DNA of 64,000 nt, from assembly GCF_000764025.1 (NCBI RefSeq), contig NZ_KN234764.1:1-64000 (forward strand), written 5' to 3'. Each line of letters starts with the position of its first letter. The stretch's first letter is position 1. The DNA comes from Pseudohaliea rubra DSM 19751. GTDB taxonomy: Bacteria; Pseudomonadota; Gammaproteobacteria; Pseudomonadales; Halieaceae. This document shows positions 2,467 to 27,562 of this stretch, piece after piece. The position numbers were made by a program, and so were the translations under genes. Under the pieces are notes generated by a model, which worked only from the letters and a program-made list of their open reading frames with translations, searched no databases and was not told the DNA's origin.

Positions 2467-2561
2467 GAGGCGCCCGTTTCCTTAACAGGGAACGTGATTT
2501 TTGAGGATAATTTTTGCTTACTTTCAGGACTGCGGGCAGCGTGAGGGAGTAAACTGGCATC

Positions 2562-4589
2562 ATGGGAAGTGTCTTCCATCAGCTTTTCGCTTTGAAGGCC
2601 TTGCCCGGCGACCAGCGCGAGGAGCTGGACCGTGCCATTGCACGCGGTGTACTGCTTTTTTCCGGCCCCCTGTCGCTCCTCGTCTTCGTCTGGCTTTTAC
2701 CAGGACTTGTCGAGGCCCGAGACTGGTTTCGGCTGGCGACCTACCTGCTGACCATCAGCGTCTACGGCACGCTTGTCCTCCTCAGAGGACGTATCACCGC
2801 ACGCCGCAGGATGCTTGTGCTGGCGGTCACTTTTCTCGCCGTATCCTCAGCGCTGCAGTTGCACGCCGGGCCGCTGTCCCAGGCCAGCTCCATGGGGCCC
2901 GTTGCAATCATCCTTCTTGTCGTTTTCGGTCAGCTTCGCCTCGCCGTCGCCGCCGGCGCGTGGCTCGTCTCCCTGTCCCTGGCCATCGGTCTCGGCGGCT
3001 GGAACAACGCCGTGCTCGAACAGTCGGACCTGGCGATGCTGCTCAGCTCCTCCGCTTACTGGGGCTACCGCTCGGGGGCGATGATCTTTCTGCTGGGCAA
3101 CCTGGTGATCATCGTGACCTGCCTGGTCAGCGCCTATGCGCGCGCCCTGCGCGACCTCGAGGCCGAAGAAGTTGTCCTGGAACAGCGGCTGCAGGCGCGC
3201 ACGGAAGATCTCACCAGAACCCTGCAACAGGTCCGAGAAAGCGATGCGCGGGCGCGCCAGCTCGCCTATCAGGATGACCTCACGGGCCTCGCTAACCGGC
3301 ATCGTATCGAGGAGCTGTACGCGCAGCGACGGGAACCGAACAGCACCCTGAGCGGCCCGCACACGCTCGCGCTGGTCAACCTGCGCAACTTCAACGCATT
3401 CAACGACAGCTTCGGCTTCGCCGAGGGCAATCTGCTGCTCCGCCAGGCAGGCGCCCGCCTGCTCGAGGCGGCGCGACCAAGCGAAGTTGTCGCTCGGCTG
3501 GCGGCCGATGAGTTCCTGGTGATCATGCCGTGGATCCACGACGCCGCGGATGTGCAGCAGCGCCTTGAGCAACTCGGCCGGGCCCTGGATGGCGAAAGCT
3601 ATGTGGCCGGCCACCCGGTGCGCCTGCAGGCCGCCATTGGCGCCGCCCGGTGCCCGGACGACGGCGAGGATTTCACCGGGCTCTACCGGGCCGCGAAGCG
3701 CGCCTGGACACGCGCAAAAGCGCACGGCGGCACGACCACCGAACTTTTCAATGCCACCCTCGACGGCGTCGGCGAACAGCGGCTGGCCGATCTTCATGCG
3801 TTGCGCGATGCCATCGACGGCGGTGCCATAGCACTGCAGTTCCAGCCGATCCTCGACCTGCGCCACAACCGCATCGTCAGCGCAGAGGGTCTGCTGCGCT
3901 GGAGTGCGCCCGATACCGGCACCAGCCGCTCGCCGGGGCAGTTCCTGCCCCTGGCCGTGCAGGACGGCCGCATGCCCGAACTCAATGACCGCAACCTCCA
4001 GCAGGTTCTCGAACTGCTCGAAAGCTGGTCCGATCAGCCTGCACTTGGCGACATCGCGCTCAGCTTCAATCTTTCCGCCGCCGAACTCCTGGAACCCGCC
4101 AGCACGGAGGCGCTTATGGAGCGCGTCCGTCGTCAACCGGATGTCGCCAGCCGCCTGATCATCGAGCTGACGGAAAGCGACCTGGTGGCGGACCTCGATG
4201 CGCTGCAGGCGGTCATCGCCGAACTGCGCGCGCTGGGTCTGCGCATCGCCATTGACGACTTCGGCGTGGGCTATTCGAGCCTCGCCCGCCTTCACCGCCT
4301 GTCTGTGGACATCGTCAAGCTTGACGGCAGTTTCATAATCGACCTGGAAACTGACCCGCAGACGCAGGACCTGGTGCGCGCGGTGATCGATATTGCCCAT
4401 CGCCTCGGAGCGCGTGTCACCGCCGAGTTCGTGCGCACGGCAGCGCAGGCAACGCTGTTGCGAGAAATGCACTGCGATTACGCCCAGGGAGAATATGTTG
4501 CCATGGCGCTGCCAACGGATGCGCTCGAGGAGGAAGTGCGCCGCTACAACAACAGCGGCGCCACGGCAGCCCGCAGGACCCCGGGTTGA
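2562..4589 (+). CDS. Membrane GGDEF/EAL protein 1 of 3, degenerate AADEF and EGL motifs
   Basis: Predicted cyclic-di-GMP signalling protein of 675 aa. Residues 1-195 contain about five or six membrane segments of no recognised sensor family, then a short coiled coil (about 198-235). The GGDEF domain carries AADEF at 314-318 instead of GGDEF, and the inhibitory-site position reads RPSE, so diguanylate cyclase activity is unlikely. The EAL domain has EGL near 441 but keeps FNLSA, IELTES, IDDFGVGYSS, VKLDGSF and the QG motif near the end, so phosphodiesterase activity is possible. In the AEGVE-like segment the second Glu is Arg (AEFVRT). ATG follows a GGGAG. The stop overlaps the TTG start of the next paralogue by 4 bases, implying coupled translation. 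Confidence 0.9.
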   Translation: MGSVFHQLFALKALPGDQREELDRAIARGVLLFSGPLSLLVFVWLLPGLVEARDWFRLATYLLTISVYGTLVLLRGRITARRRMLVLAVTFLAVSSALQLHAGPLSQASSMGPVAIILLVVFGQLRLAVAAGAWLVSLSLAIGLGGWNNAVLEQSDLAMLLSSSAYWGYRSGAMIFLLGNLVIIVTCLVSAYARALRDLEAEEVVLEQRLQARTEDLTRTLQQVRESDARARQLAYQDDLTGLANRHRIEELYAQRREPNSTLSGPHTLALVNLRNFNAFNDSFGFAEGNLLLRQAGARLLEAARPSEVVARLAADEFLVIMPWIHDAADVQQRLEQLGRALDGESYVAGHPVRLQAAIGAARCPDDGEDFTGLYRAAKRAWTRAKAHGGTTTELFNATLDGVGEQRLADLHALRDAIDGGAIALQFQPILDLRHNRIVSAEGLLRWSAPDTGTSRSPGQFLPLAVQDGRMPELNDRNLQQVLELLESWSDQPALGDIALSFNLSAAELLEPASTEALMERVRRQPDVASRLIIELTESDLVADLDALQAVIAELRALGLRIAIDDFGVGYSSLARLHRLSVDIVKLDGSFIIDLETDPQTQDLVRAVIDIAHRLGARVTAEFVRTAAQATLLREMHCDYAQGEYVAMALPTDALEEEVRRYNNSGATAARRTPG

Positions 4590-6562
4590 ACACCGGACTC
4601 ATCCAGGCAGAGCTGCGCGGACGCATCTGCGACCGCATTATCCTCATGAGCGGGCCGATCATGCTCATTGTGGCGTCGCTGATCGCGACAGGACCGGTAC
4701 TGGTGCCCGGGCGTCCCCTGGCAACCCTGTTCGCCGTGAGCGGCGCAGTCTGTCTCCTGCTGGGCGCTTTCCGCCACCGGCTGAGTACGACGCTGAAAGC
4801 GGTCGCTTTTGTAATGCTTGCGCTGCTGCTCTTTGTCAGCACTCAGCTGCTTTTCGGGCGCCAGGCGCCGCCGAGCACCATGGGGCTCGTCGTGGTGCTG
4901 TTTTCGATCGTTTTCTGCAGACCGGGCATCACTCTCGCTATCGTTGCCTTTCTCCTGGGCACGACCGGCTTTGTGCAGGGCACAGGCCTGACGCTAAGCC
5001 CCCTCGCCCAGCCCGAGTATGCGGCCACCATCAGAGGCAGCTGGACTTACAAGGTGATTCCCCTCGGCCTCGGAGTCGCCTATATGGCGGTCATCGGCGG
5101 CAGCCTGCTGGGCGCCTATCGAAGGGCACTGAGCCGCCTCGGTGCCAGCGAGGCAAGCCTCGAAGATGCACTGGCAGCGCGCACATCGGAACTGCAACAG
5201 GCGCTCAACGTCGCGCTGGAGCGCGAGCAGGAGATGAAGCGTATCGCCTACCGCGACGAGCTCACCGGCCTTCTCTCCCGCCATCGTATCGATCGCTTCT
5301 ACGACGATCTCCCCGAGGATGAATCCCTCGCGGGCCTGCCCCACAACGTCGCCCTGGTGAACCTGCGCGACTTCAGCGACATCAACGACACCTACGGTTA
5401 CGCCATCGGCAATATCGTGCTCACGGAGTTTGCCCAGCGCCTGCTCCAGGCCTGCGACCGGCGGGACCTCGTCGCCCGCCTGTCCGCCGACGAATTCCTC
5501 GTGGTACTGCGCTGGGCGCGGGCCCAGGGCAGCCTCGACGAGAAACTGGCTTATCTGCAGCAACAGCTCGATCGGGAAATCTACGTTGCCGGCCACGCCA
5601 TCAGCCTGCGCTGCGCCATCGGCGTCGCAAGCTACCCGGAAGACGGCCGTGATCTGTCGGGCCTGTACCGTGCGGCCCGGCGAGCCTGGGCACGGGCACG
5701 CAGCCAGGGCAGCCACGCACTGGCTGTCTTCGATCCGGCCCGAGATGGGCGTGGCGAGCACCGGCTGGCGATGATTGAGGAACTGCGCGGCGCGCTCGTA
5801 GCCAATGCCATCCACCTGCAATTCCAGCCCATTGTCCGCCTCGACGACATGCGCGTAGTGGCCGCCGAGGGGCTGGCGCGCTGGCAGCCCGAAGACGGCG
5901 CCCTGCGCAGCCCCGCAGAGTTCCTGCCCCTGGTGGACGAGTCAGGACAAATGCAGGAGCTCAACCTGCGCAACCTGCGCCAGGTAACGGGACTCCTCGA
6001 CAGCTGGCGAGCCGACCCGGACCTTGCAGCCATAGGGCTGAGCTTTAACCTAAGCGCCAGGGATCTGCTCGACGAAGCAATCGTCGAACAGCTGGATGCT
6101 CTCGGTCACGGGCGGGCAAACGCGCCGCTCGGGCTCACGATCGAAATCACCGAGAGCGACGTCGTGAGCGATATGGATGCGCTGCGCGATACCATCCGCC
6201 GTCTGCGACGCCGGGGACTGCGTTTTGCCATCGACGATTTCGGCGTCGGCTATTCGAGCCTTGCCAGGCTGCATCAGCTCGAGGTCGACGTGGTCAAGCT
6301 CGATGGTAGCTTTATCGCCGAGATTGAACAGCGGCAGGAGAGCCGGGATCTGGTGCGGGCGGTGATCGACATCGCGCATAAGCTGGGGGCCCTGGTTACC
6401 GCCGAATACGTGCAGACGGCCGGACAGGTCGCCCTCCTTCGCGACATGGGCTGTGATTTCGGCCAGGGAAGCTTCGTTGCCCAGGCCCTCCCGCAGGTGC
6501 GCTTCGAGCACCTCGTACGCCAGGGCCGAGCGCCCGATACACTGAAATACCAGTACTGCTAG
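4586..6562 (+). CDS. Membrane GGDEF/EAL protein 2 of 3, degenerate SADEF and EGL motifs
   Basis: Second of three tandem paralogues, 658 aa. It begins with TTG at 4586 overlapping the previous stop (TTGA). ATG 4646 is an alternative but would remove part of the first membrane segment. About five membrane helices lie in residues 15-180, followed by a coiled coil. The cyclase-like domain shows SADEF near residue 300 with no RxxD inhibitory site. The EAL domain shows EGLARW near 427, FNLSARDLLDE, IEITESD, IDDFGVGYSS, VKLDGSF, AEYVQT and FGQG, so the metal and substrate ligands are mostly kept. Best guess is a phosphodiesterase with a non-catalytic GGDEF partner domain. The N-terminal region differs from paralogue 1, so the two may sense different inputs. 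Confidence 0.9.
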   Translation: MNTGLIQAELRGRICDRIILMSGPIMLIVASLIATGPVLVPGRPLATLFAVSGAVCLLLGAFRHRLSTTLKAVAFVMLALLLFVSTQLLFGRQAPPSTMGLVVVLFSIVFCRPGITLAIVAFLLGTTGFVQGTGLTLSPLAQPEYAATIRGSWTYKVIPLGLGVAYMAVIGGSLLGAYRRALSRLGASEASLEDALAARTSELQQALNVALEREQEMKRIAYRDELTGLLSRHRIDRFYDDLPEDESLAGLPHNVALVNLRDFSDINDTYGYAIGNIVLTEFAQRLLQACDRRDLVARLSADEFLVVLRWARAQGSLDEKLAYLQQQLDREIYVAGHAISLRCAIGVASYPEDGRDLSGLYRAARRAWARARSQGSHALAVFDPARDGRGEHRLAMIEELRGALVANAIHLQFQPIVRLDDMRVVAAEGLARWQPEDGALRSPAEFLPLVDESGQMQELNLRNLRQVTGLLDSWRADPDLAAIGLSFNLSARDLLDEAIVEQLDALGHGRANAPLGLTIEITESDVVSDMDALRDTIRRLRRRGLRFAIDDFGVGYSSLARLHQLEVDVVKLDGSFIAEIEQRQESRDLVRAVIDIAHKLGALVTAEYVQTAGQVALLRDMGCDFGQGSFVAQALPQVRFEHLVRQGRAPDTLKYQYC

Positions 6563-6794
6563 CGCTTCCGCAGCCGGACCACCCGGCGCCGGGGTCCCGG
6601 AAGCACCCCGCGCTCGAACCAGGAAGTGCGGCGCAGCCATCGCTTGTTGCAGGGGCTCGCTTGAGGCTGCGCTGGCAGACCAGGACCGAAGCGCCCCGCG
6701 TCAGGTTTTCGCGCACCCAGGCCGCGGCTTCAGGCAAGCGGATAGCACCAGGCAGGCATAGATTGCATTTTGCAACTTATGGGCGAACTGTGGC
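6563..6794. other. Intergenic stretch with a possible minus-strand gene remnant
   Basis: No complete gene. On the minus strand, segments in different frames look protein-like (for example WLRRTSWFERGVLPGPRRR ending at a TAG at 6559-6561) and would need at least one frameshift to join. They match no family I recognise, so this may be a decayed gene or chance. Confidence 0.25.
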
Positions 6795-6833
6795 ATGCTC
6801 CCCTATCAGGGGGGGGCTTCCCGAATTAACTTC

Positions 6834-8531
6834 ATGCCGCAAGCTGACCAGAAAGAACCGACGACCGCAGGGGAGCCGGCCTTCACGCTGTCTCGCCTGG
6901 CCGCCGGCGCCGGCGTTGCACTGCTCGCCGCTGCCCTCGGCAGCCTCGCAGCCATCAGGCTATCGCAGCATGACGGCGCGAACACCGCGGGATGGTTGCT
7001 GCCGGCAAATGCTTCGGCGCTGCTCCTGACGTTGTCGGTGGCGGCCCTGTTCGGTGCCGCCTGGTTGAATGCCCGCGCACGGCTGCTGACACTCCAGAGC
7101 ACCCTGAAGACGACGCTTGCGGAGCGAACGGCCGCCCTCGAGGGCGCCCTCGCCGAGGGGGCCGAGCGGGAGCGGACGCTCAGCGAGCTGGCCTTCCGCG
7201 ATGAGCTCACCGGCCTGTTCAGTCGCCAGCGGATTGAGCAACACTACCGTGAGCTGGCGCGCAGCGATGACCACCAGCAGCCCCACGGCCTTGTCGTCAT
7301 CAATATCCGCGATTTTTCCGACGTGAACGACAGCTATGGCTTCGCTACCGGCGACCAGCTGCTGAAGCGGGTTGCCGGCCTGCTCCTGGGCTGCTGCACG
7401 CCGCGGGACATCGTGGCCCGCTTCGCCGCTGACGAGTTCGTGGTCCTTATGCAATGGGCCCTGAGTGAAGCAGATATCGCCGAGCGTCTGCGCCAATTCC
7501 GCCACGCGCTCAACGGGGAGGTCTTCCTTGCGGGCTATGCACTGACGCTGCGCACGGCCATTGGCGCAGCGCGCTTCCCGGATAACGGCAGTCACCTGGA
7601 CGGGCTCTACCAGGCTGCACGCCGGGCCGCACGGCGCGCCGGTGAAAAGGGCGGCGAGGCCGCCCTGCTCTTTGACGACCGCCTCGACGGTGTCGGCGAG
7701 CACCGGCTGGAGAACATCGAGACGCTACGCCGGGCGATTGCCGACGGCTCCGTAAGCCTCCATTACCAGCCGATTGTTGAGCTGGCGACCATGCGTATCA
7801 GCGGCGCTGAGGGCCTGGCCCGCTGGCAGGTGGACGGCGATACGCTGTGGTCGCCGGCGCGTTTCCTCGGCCTGGCTGTTCATTCCGATCAGATCCACGC
7901 CCTCAATCAACGTAATCTCACCCAGGTTATCGAGCAGCTCGAAGGCTGGTCCAATGACCCGGTCTTTCGTACGCTATACCTCAGCTTCAACCTGAGCGCG
8001 CGGGACCTGCTGGAAAGCGACATGTACCAGCAGCTCCTTGCTTTCGCTCGAGCGCAACCGGCAACGGCACGGCACTTGACGGTTGAAATCATTGAGAGCG
8101 ATGTGATTGACAGTCTCGAGCCCCTGGCCAGTGTTACCGCAGGCCTGCGGCGCGCCGGCATGCGCGTGGCGATCGATGATTTCGGCACCGGCCAGTCGAG
8201 CCTGGCACGCCTCCACGAGCTCAACGTCGACCTGGTCAAGCTCGATGGCAGCTTTATCGCCAACCTGGAAAACAACCCGAAAAACCGCAGCCTGGTCCAC
8301 GCGGTAATCGACATCAGTCACAAACTGGACGCCCGCGTCATCGCCGAATATGTGGAAACCCCCGCTCAGGCCGCGCTTCTGCGCGATATGGGCTGTGACT
8401 ACGCCCAGGGTAACTACTTCCACGGTGCGATGGCGAGCACGAGCTTCGAGGCTCTGGTGGCCCAGCTCGGCGGGCAGCCACCCAGATCCATGGCGGCCGT
8501 TCCCTGGCCGTCAAGAAGCCCGGGGCGCTGA
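6834..8531 (+). CDS. Membrane GGDEF/EAL protein 3 of 3, degenerate AADEF and EGL motifs
   Basis: Third paralogue, about 565 aa from ATG 6834; ATG 6795 would add 13 residues, and neither start has a strong ribosome site. It is shorter than its neighbours, with only two membrane helices (about residues 25-75) before a coiled coil. The cyclase domain has AADEF near 198 and the EAL domain EGLARW near 325. FNLSARDLLES, VEIIESD, IDDFGTGQSS, VKLDGSF, AEYVET and YAQG are present, so the catalytic Glu/Asn/Asp/Lys set of EAL phosphodiesterases looks complete. It is separated from paralogue 2 by 270 bases, so it may have its own promoter. The shared xADEF/EGL signature shows that all three arose by duplication after the motif had already changed. 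Confidence 0.9.
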   Translation: MPQADQKEPTTAGEPAFTLSRLAAGAGVALLAAALGSLAAIRLSQHDGANTAGWLLPANASALLLTLSVAALFGAAWLNARARLLTLQSTLKTTLAERTAALEGALAEGAERERTLSELAFRDELTGLFSRQRIEQHYRELARSDDHQQPHGLVVINIRDFSDVNDSYGFATGDQLLKRVAGLLLGCCTPRDIVARFAADEFVVLMQWALSEADIAERLRQFRHALNGEVFLAGYALTLRTAIGAARFPDNGSHLDGLYQAARRAARRAGEKGGEAALLFDDRLDGVGEHRLENIETLRRAIADGSVSLHYQPIVELATMRISGAEGLARWQVDGDTLWSPARFLGLAVHSDQIHALNQRNLTQVIEQLEGWSNDPVFRTLYLSFNLSARDLLESDMYQQLLAFARAQPATARHLTVEIIESDVIDSLEPLASVTAGLRRAGMRVAIDDFGTGQSSLARLHELNVDLVKLDGSFIANLENNPKNRSLVHAVIDISHKLDARVIAEYVETPAQAALLRDMGCDYAQGNYFHGAMASTSFEALVAQLGGQPPRSMAAVPWPSRSPGR

Positions 8532-17960: not shown

Positions 17961-19249
17961 GTGTAGTACCTGAGACATAGCTTACAGAAAAACTCGGAGA
18001 CATCGTTTACACATTTGGCATTTGGGGAGGGCTCCCGATGCCATGGAAGGAGTGTAAACCGATGGATGAGAAGATCAGATTCGTCGCCCGAGCGCTTGAG
18101 GGCGAACCCATGGCAAAGCTGTGCCGAGAGTTCGGCATCTCACGCCCAACAGGCTACAAACTGGTCAATCGATACCGCGAGGTCGGCATCGAAGGCCTCG
18201 AAGAACGATCTCGACGGCCCTATCGGCACGCCAATAAACTCCCCTACCAGGTCGAACGTACGATCGTCGGTATCCGCAAGAAGCATCCGACCTGGGGGGC
18301 AACAAAGGTCCGCGAGATACTGGTTCGGGAATATCCCGTCATCAAGCCGCCCGCTCCAAGCACGATCCACGCCGTCCTCGATCGAAACGGCCTCATCACG
18401 CGCCGCAAGCGACGACGCCACAAGGCCGCAGGCACACCGCTGAACCACGTCACCGAGCCAAATGACCTGTGGTGTGCCGACTACAAGGGCGAGTTCATGC
18501 TCGGCAACAAGCGTTACTGTTATCCGCTGACCATCACGGACTACCACTCTCGCTATCTCCTGGCCTGCGAGGGCCTCGACTCCACAAAGGCCCCACTGGC
18601 GCTACCGGTGTTCGAACGCGTCTTCAAGGAGTTCGGACTACCAGCAGCGATACGCACCGACAATGGCGTACCTTTCGCCTCGCCCAATGCGCTTTTTGGC
18701 CTCAGCCGACTGGCCATCTACTGGCTACGCCTGGGCATCCGCATCGAGCGCATCAAGCCCGGCTGTCCACAGCAGAACGGGCGCCACGAACGCATGCACC
18801 TGACGCTCAAGAAGGAGGCCACGAAGCCCGCCAGCTTCAATCTGATTCAGCAGCAGGAACGCTTTGAAGCCTTTGCCGAGGTTTACAACAATCAGCGGCC
18901 TCACCAGGCCCTCGGCATGCGCTTTCCCGGCGAGCTCTATACACCCTCGACCAGGCCCTTCTCACCGCCGGAGGAGCCCGACTACCCATTCCACGACAGG
19001 GCTGTCAGAGTCACGCAGTGCGGCAGAATCTGCATAGGCAAACGCAAGATCAATCTGAGTACCGTATTCGCCGGCCAAACCGTTGGCATACGCGAAGTCG
19101 ACGACAAGATTTGGCTCGTCAGCTTCCTCGACTATGACTTAGGATACTTCGACGAGAAGGAAGGTCGGGTTGAGCCAGGGCCCAACCCTTTTAACCCGGA
19201 ACTGTAAACGATGTCTCCGGGTTGATCTGTAAAGGATGTCTCCGGTACA
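17961..19249 (+). mobile_element. IS481-family insertion sequence
   Basis: Complete-looking element of about 1.29 kb. Ends begin TGTA and close TACA. The left end 17962-18011 and right end 19203-19249 are imperfect inverted repeats, each containing two iterations of a GAGACAT--TTACA unit, as expected for transposase binding. GACCG lies directly outside both ends (17956-17960 and 19250-19254), a probable 5-base target duplication. It is inserted 13 bases from the 3' end of tRNA-Pro. Confidence 0.85.
18038..19207 (+). CDS. IS481-family transposase
   Basis: 389-residue DDE transposase that cuts and joins the element ends. An N-terminal helix-turn-helix region (about 12-60, CREFGISRPTGYKLVNRY) precedes the integrase core with the acidic residues in LWCADYKGEF, IRTDNGVPFA and NGRHERMHLT, giving an intact DDE triad. 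The C-terminal beta region (INLSTVFAGQTVGI, WLVSFLDYDLGYFD) is typical of this group. The frame is uninterrupted, so the element may be active. The MPWKE start at 18038 matches the family; ATG 18062 also has a GGAG in front. Confidence 0.95.
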   Translation: MPWKECKPMDEKIRFVARALEGEPMAKLCREFGISRPTGYKLVNRYREVGIEGLEERSRRPYRHANKLPYQVERTIVGIRKKHPTWGATKVREILVREYPVIKPPAPSTIHAVLDRNGLITRRKRRRHKAAGTPLNHVTEPNDLWCADYKGEFMLGNKRYCYPLTITDYHSRYLLACEGLDSTKAPLALPVFERVFKEFGLPAAIRTDNGVPFASPNALFGLSRLAIYWLRLGIRIERIKPGCPQQNGRHERMHLTLKKEATKPASFNLIQQQERFEAFAEVYNNQRPHQALGMRFPGELYTPSTRPFSPPEEPDYPFHDRAVRVTQCGRICIGKRKINLSTVFAGQTVGIREVDDKIWLVSFLDYDLGYFDEKEGRVEPGPNPFNPEL

Positions 19250-19262
19250 GACCGCCGAAAAA

Positions 19263-19339
19263 TGGTCGGGACGGCAGGATTTGAACCTGCGACCACCACA
19301 CCCCCAGTGTGGTGCGCTACCAGACTGCGCTACGCCCCG
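19263..19339 (-). tRNA. tRNA-Pro(GGG)
   Basis: Read on the minus strand, a 77-base cloverleaf from CGGGGCG to an encoded CCA. The acceptor stem pairs CGGGGCG with CGTCCCG, the D arm reads TAGCGCAGTCTGGTAGCGC, the anticodon loop CTGGGGG gives GGG, and the T arm is GCAGGTTCAAATCCTGC. Confidence 0.95.
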
Positions 19340-26996: not shown

Positions 26997-27420
26997 CTAT
27001 GCGGCTACCGCTTCCGCCCTGTTGCGGCCCTCTTCCTTCGCGCGGTACAGCGCCTGATCCGCGCGTGACACCAGCTCTGCAGCGCTCGCACAGTCGATTG
27101 CCCCGCACTCCGCGACCCCCAGGCTGATGGTCACGTACCCGAAGGGTGACGCCGCATGGGGGATGCGTGCCTCCTCGACGGCGCGACGGAGCTTATCCGC
27201 CAGGAAGCCCGCCGGGGCCGTACCGGTGGTCTCGATCACGGCAAACTCCTCTCCGCCAATGCGTGCCCGGAAGTCCGAACCGCGCTGGGTCTGCTGCCGC
27301 AGGAGATCGGCCACGCGGCGCAGGCATTCGTCGCCGGCGGGATGTCCGTGTGGTCGTTGTACTGCTTGAAACATTCGATATCGATCTGGCGGGTAAGCGT
27401 GTGCGAAGGAGCGCAGCAGC
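26997..27420 (-). pseudogene. Decayed GGDEF domain (C-terminal part, frameshifted)
   Basis: The C-terminal two thirds of a diguanylate cyclase domain can be read: GHPAGDECLRRVADLLRQQ, the active-type motif RIGGEEFAVI, and VTISLGVAE ... ADQALYRAKEEGRNR. The preceding DIECFKQYNDH lies in another frame; one missing base near 27350 (CAC-TAC-GGA expected) separates the two. Nothing upstream of about 27400 resembles a sensor or the first half of the domain. It is therefore a remnant, not a working cyclase. Confidence 0.8.
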
Positions 27421-27562
27421 TTACTGAACAAGTGTGCCGTTGTCCGTCCCGCGCGCGCCAGCGACGGGCAGCGACGGTTTTTGAGGCAGATCAAGGGGGC
27501 AGGAGTCGAAAAGCATTAGCCTGACAGCTGATGTGAAAATTCCCTAACAAAGGAGAGGCCCC

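Follow-up and report, generated by a model that had tools for sequence, protein, structure and literature searches.

Three tandem GGDEF-EAL genes of Pseudohaliea rubra probably encode membrane phosphodiesterases with an inert GGDEF domain

A tandem trio of GGDEF-EAL genes

The first 64,000 nucleotides of contig NZ_KN234764.1 of Pseudohaliea rubra DSM 19751 (hereafter the window) carry three consecutive genes for membrane proteins that combine a GGDEF and an EAL domain. The trio is likely a set of tandem paralogues, membrane-bound cyclic di-GMP (c-di-GMP) phosphodiesterases with an inert GGDEF domain that arose by two duplications from a single degenerate-GGDEF/EAL ancestor. The original prediction, made from the sequence of the window, had placed three such genes at 2562-8531, and all three are same-strand open reading frames (ORFs) at these coordinates. 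Both Pfam PF00990 and PF00563 exceed the gathering score in each protein, identifying all three as GGDEF-EAL hybrids (GGDEF, 95-103 bits; EAL, 219-225 bits), and the Pfam scan of the three proteins returned no other family at its cut-off.

2562-4589, plus strand: gene 1 (P0001, 675 amino acids), with five to six membrane helices, an S-helix/coiled-coil linker, a degenerate GGDEF domain and an EAL domain
4586-6562, plus strand: gene 2 (P0002, 658 amino acids, TTG start at 4586), with the architecture of gene 1
6795-8531, plus strand: gene 3 (P0003, 578 amino acids), with two membrane helices, a linker, a degenerate GGDEF domain and an EAL domain
6834, plus strand: alternative ATG start of gene 3

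The gene 1 stop and the gene 2 TTG start share four bases (TTGA), an overlap that suggests translational coupling, and a gap of 232 bases separates gene 2 from gene 3. The ratio of nonsynonymous to synonymous substitution among the three genes is 0.40-0.51, with synonymous divergence near saturation, which is compatible with genes under constraint. NCBIfam matches were to general GGDEF-EAL phosphodiesterase models, all far under their equivalog cut-offs. The best named models over the GGDEF-EAL region were DibA, GepA and other phosphodiesterases of this architecture; the DibA score of 243-250 bits is so far below its equivalog cut-off of 980 that the trio cannot be considered DibA orthologues.

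A single lineage private to this genome

The trio was compared with 48 other GGDEF-EAL modules drawn from its own genome, the sister species, the family, the order, and outside plasmid and genome hits. The predicted AADEF or SADEF and EGL motifs were confirmed in the three proteins and, being absent from all 48 other modules, are not a product of chance. In a maximum-likelihood tree of the GGDEF-EAL halves the trio is monophyletic with a support of 100/100, in keeping with the single lineage originally proposed, and no canonical homologue is interspersed within the clade, although this is a weak test because no further clade member was found. The stem of the clade measures 1.25 substitutions per site and its tips 0.42-0.48. 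Pairwise identities within the trio are about equal (46% for GGDEF, 50-54% for EAL) and thus favor no particular order for the two duplications. In this tree, only 0.04-0.16 substitutions per site separate orthologous GGDEF-EAL proteins of the species and its sister; unless the trio evolves fast, the duplications therefore appear considerably older than the split between the two species.

No relative with the defining features of the trio was recovered elsewhere. The sister species (estimated 100% complete, 420 contigs) harbors background GGDEF-EAL proteins only and no trio member, and a search with a trio profile identified no other member in 140 family, 392 order, 369 class and 398 phylum genomes; these samples overlap and the wider searches scored the best three candidates per genome, making the absence strong but not complete. 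None of the background hits inspected has AADEF, SADEF or EGL, and most carry canonical GGDEF and EAL motifs, while among the other EAL proteins of the same genome that could be scored over both domains, none displays the motif combination of the trio. Candidate close relatives on genome contigs proved to be matches of only 32-34% identity with canonical motifs, and those on plasmids (789 records) were all below 60% identity, with 28-37% among the matches listed. The single clade, together with the lack of members in the other genomes searched, makes tandem duplication of one ancestor a well-supported interpretation of these sequences.

Two kinds of membrane region

2607-3149, plus strand: membrane module of gene 1, with helices at about residues 16-196, homologous to the gene 2 module
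4586-5131, plus strand: membrane module of gene 2, residues 1-182, homologous to the gene 1 module
Residues 36-54 and 73-91 of protein 3: membrane helices

Three different N-terminal membrane regions had been predicted, but there are two kinds. The regions of proteins 1 and 2 are homologous, with 30% identity and a z-score of 10 against shuffles (0/500 shuffles scored as high), and each has approximately six predicted helices, the last of which continues into the linker. Only the two-helix region of protein 3 is without detectable kinship, showing no significant similarity to the membrane regions of proteins 1 and 2 (z about 1). MAFFT places this region alongside the final helices of the other two proteins, a candidate relationship that we rejected as the similarity is not significant; the protein 3 region may have arisen by replacement or by shortening. 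Thus, the proposal that the lineage diversified by changing its input holds for protein 3 at most, since proteins 1 and 2 share diverged versions of one membrane module.

The gene 1 module has no Pfam match, and no full-length match to the module of proteins 1 and 2 was detected in the 391 other genomes of the order sample, where the sole match was weak and partial (E = 2e-6), covering the last 68 of 235 positions and mainly the linker end. AlphaFold2 confidence over the membrane part of protein 1 is mostly about 50-65, and the module modelled by itself reached a predicted local distance difference test (pLDDT) score of 56, too poor for a fold search.

The GGDEF domain is degenerate beyond its motif

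3264-3731, plus strand: GGDEF domain of gene 1, motif AADEF at 3501-3515
5246-5713, plus strand: GGDEF domain of gene 2, motif SADEF at 5483-5497
7191-7655, plus strand: GGDEF domain of gene 3, motif AADEF at 7425-7439

Judged by its residues, the GGDEF half of the trio is dead as a cyclase, and on grounds that extend beyond the motif alone. Alanine at the second glycine of GGDEF occurs in 0/48 modules of the comparison set. With sites numbered as in PleD and residues given for proteins 1/2/3, D327 is N/N/N, K332 is N/S/S, D344 is N/N/D, K442 is K/R/G and R446 is G/S/G; N335 and E370 (as Asp) are the only sites kept in all three, leaving three, two and three of the seven active-site residues, respectively. 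The combination of GG(D/E)EF with the seven PleD residues that defines an active diguanylate cyclase is therefore lacking throughout the trio. Furthermore, the native AADEF and SADEF motifs are the same as those of laboratory mutants built to kill cyclases: AADEF abolished the cyclase product of SSFG_02181 as assessed by liquid chromatography-mass spectrometry (PMC7374567) and lowered c-di-GMP formation by DGC2884 (PMC8294551), and the effects of VF_A0057 were reduced by SADEF (PMC11575326). Some GGDEF-EAL homologues of ZMO1055 share a natural AADEF with the trio, and these are classed as non-active cyclases (PMC12900916). That the three proteins are active or bifunctional diguanylate cyclases despite their odd motif is hardly credible: variant motifs such as SGDEF and GGDQF can be active (PMC12900916; PMC11575326), but the trio combines the change of the second glycine to alanine with that of Asp327 to asparagine, matches inactivating mutants and retains only two or three of the seven active-site residues.

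A dead GGDEF domain could nonetheless bind GTP and switch on the adjacent EAL domain, for which CC3396/PdeA of Caulobacter offers the precedent of a GTP sensor activating its EAL neighbor (as stated in PMC12943098). Like the trio, CC3396 has a degenerate GGDEF domain ahead of an EAL phosphodiesterase, and its EAL fold matches (3u2e, 4hjf); Asn335 and the acidic residue at 370 are also kept. In contrast to CC3396, which senses GTP through its GGDEF domain, the trio has largely lost the residues for GTP binding: all three proteins lack Lys332, Arg446 and the metal ligand Asp327, and two lack Lys442, which is kept in protein 1 only. The PleD sites are invariant among the copies at 3/7, compared with 33% over the whole GGDEF domain (P = 0.43), and a pocket no more conserved than its surroundings does not indicate a maintained nucleotide site, which renders GTP sensing unlikely. 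The inhibitory-site RxxD is likewise incomplete in every protein (RxxE, DxxD and TxxD in proteins 1, 2 and 3). A GTP-activated phosphodiesterase is thus an improbable description of the trio. Of the fixed regulatory GGDEF domain first proposed, the fixation stands, as the sequences support a degenerate domain already fixed in the common ancestor; a GTP-binding switch does not, with Asp327 and most phosphate and base contacts lost and the sites still varying.

The EAL domain retains its essential residues

3798-4505, plus strand: EAL domain of gene 1, motif EGL at 3885-3893
5777-6484, plus strand: EAL domain of gene 2, motif EGL at 5867-5875
7719-8420, plus strand: EAL domain of gene 3, motif EGL at 7809-7817

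A close functional counterpart for the EAL half is ProE (PA5295) of Pseudomonas aeruginosa, a working phosphodiesterase with a degenerate GGDEF domain, in which mutation of 13 residues (P315, E328, L330, R332, N387, E419, E422, D449, D450, K470, E506, Q526 and G527) abolishes or nearly abolishes activity (PMC7290235). All 13 are present and invariant in the three proteins, against 41% of positions invariant across the domain (hypergeometric P = 6.3e-6), a value that reflects constraint on generally conserved sites and is not proof of activity. Loop 6 of the trio reads DDFG(V/T)G(Y/Q)SS. ProE lacks a membrane region and carries fewer GGDEF substitutions; the three proteins, in contrast, are membrane-anchored, with EGL in place of EAL and an altered EGVE. 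The invariance of the ProE-essential residues after duplication makes phosphodiesterase activity likely, and on this comparison the EAL half is probably an active enzyme, as originally proposed.

The modelled structure is consistent with this assignment. The AlphaFold2 model of protein 1 has a mean pLDDT of 81.7, rising above 90 across most of the GGDEF-EAL region, and matches the solved EAL phosphodiesterases BifA, MorA, TBD1265 and PdeA with target-normalised template modelling (TM) scores of about 0.9; its match to the PA0575 GGDEF-EAL pair scores 0.76. The GGDEF-EAL structures of RmcA (PA0575) and MorA (5m3c, 4rnh) are the closest solved sequences and folds at 30-34% identity, yet these proteins differ from the trio in having canonical GGDEF and EAL motifs and other sensor regions.

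Several features weigh against a working phosphodiesterase, and the claim of an otherwise intact EAL active site survives for the 13 ProE-essential residues and fails at two other positions. All three proteins have the A443G change that converts EAL to EGL, seen in 0/48 other modules; position 466 is V/D/V, where 96% of the background has Glu; position 623, the Gly of EGVE in 98% of the background, is F/Y/Y; proteins 1 and 2 have lost the second ExxE glutamate; and we found no literature report of activity for an EAL domain with this combination of changes. By its spacing from the EAL glutamate, position 466 aligns with Glu546 of TBD1265, which is listed among the active-site residues of that enzyme (PMC6629876). 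The ProE study aligned functional phosphodiesterases and found 17 residues conserved among them; the equivalent of Glu546 is not one of these. Eight of the nine residues on the TBD1265 list (Glu523, Arg527, Glu546, Asn584, Glu616, Asp646, Asp647, Glu703 and Gln723) are present in the trio, the exception being the Glu546 position, and activity prediction with this list allows one substitution (PMC6629876). According to PMC12943098, TBD1265 is unaffected by mutation of the second ExxE glutamate; in ProE, mutation at this site left 30-54% of activity (PMC7290235).

The remodelled site (A443G, E466 to V/D/V and G623 to F/Y/Y) could also be taken to suggest that the trio consists of c-di-GMP receptors akin to LapD or FimX, with neither domain acting as an enzyme and the EAL domain only binding c-di-GMP to signal back through the membrane. 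Membrane anchoring and the overall layout of membrane region, S-helix, degenerate GGDEF and EAL are indeed similar to those of LapD. However, LapD is a non-hydrolysing receptor, and EAL domains of the LapD and FimX type lack the catalytic residues, FimX keeping 4/10 (PMC3527489), whereas the trio retains 13/13 ProE-essential residues under evident constraint. The proteins score only 130-152 bits with the NCBIfam LapD equivalog model, which has a cut-off of 1020, and among the ORFs listed around the trio, as distinct from the whole genome, which was not searched, there is no partner protease or LapG-like gene. We therefore regard a receptor role as rather unlikely. It is also conceivable, if quite improbable, that the three EAL changes fixed in this private clade (EGL, the missing Glu546 equivalent and the aromatic residue in EGVE), together with a membrane sensor of no known family, define an EAL subtype that differs in its preferred substrate or is controlled in a new way.

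Genomic context

2475-2511, plus strand: terminator-like stem 3' of the lrp-type gene and promoter-like site 5' of gene 1, weak consensus matches only

Two promoter-like sites were found, with 0.9 expected by shuffling. In the sister species the lrp gene is followed by genes for a uracil-DNA glycosylase and an alpha/beta hydrolase, where here it precedes the trio, and a different gene, by our reading a PckA-like C-terminus, lies 5' of the TAXI-type gene that here follows segment 2467-13225. With both flanks adjoining different genes there, this segment is without synteny to the sister, which could reflect either insertion here or loss in the sister. Besides the trio, it carries genes for a universal stress protein, a BCCT transporter and a PKD-domain S8 protease. 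G+C content at third codon positions is 0.78-0.79 for the trio and 0.785-0.81 for its neighbors apart from uspA (0.635), a composition that argues neither for nor against recent horizontal transfer.

The Lrp/AsnC-type gene (1982-2466) adjoins putA (minus strand, about 1-1845) and lacks one base near 2012 relative to the sister; the frame from its ATG is cut short by a stop and an open Lrp frame starts no earlier than 2077, without most of the helix-turn-helix, indicating either a real frameshift or an assembly error. A GGDEF fragment (GGEEF) at 26997-27494 on the minus strand lacks the first 41 profile positions, and its apparent missing start lies upstream in another frame, consistent with a frameshifted diguanylate cyclase or a sequence error. 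After an IS481-type transposase gene at 18038-19339 comes a minus-strand tRNA gene. In the sister assembly, a contig end (L100, 5703-7109) encodes a Cys/Asp-rich repeat protein unlike its neighbors, and this stretch is possibly chimeric or a contaminant.

Discussion

The sequences show the gene order, the domain content, the clade, the loss of catalytic residues from GGDEF and the conservation of those of EAL. In the scheme that we infer for enzymatic activity, ligand, direction of signal flow and GGDEF relay, each protein would most likely be an inner-membrane c-di-GMP phosphodiesterase in which a long coiled-coil signalling helix links the GGDEF domain to a membrane module of about six helices (proteins 1 and 2) or two (protein 3). 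A membrane signal would alter dimer packing through the coiled-coil helix; the GGDEF domain, which would not synthesize c-di-GMP and probably would not bind GTP, would serve as a structural and dimerising relay to the EAL domain; and the catalytic EAL domain would linearise c-di-GMP to pGpG, removing it locally at the membrane. The three proteins may represent three inputs or expression regimes for the single output of c-di-GMP removal.

Bacteria often carry many GGDEF-EAL proteins, and the enzymes among them are often guessed from a five-letter motif. The trio is an old, private tandem duplication within a familiar kind of bacterial signalling enzyme, ordinary in kind and somewhat unusual in being private. 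It amounts to a small natural experiment, in which one body was duplicated twice, with the dead cyclase site free to drift and the phosphodiesterase site held fixed. As such, it bears on whether an EAL domain with EGL, no Glu546 equivalent and an aromatic residue in EGVE works, an answer to which would sharpen prediction for similar proteins.
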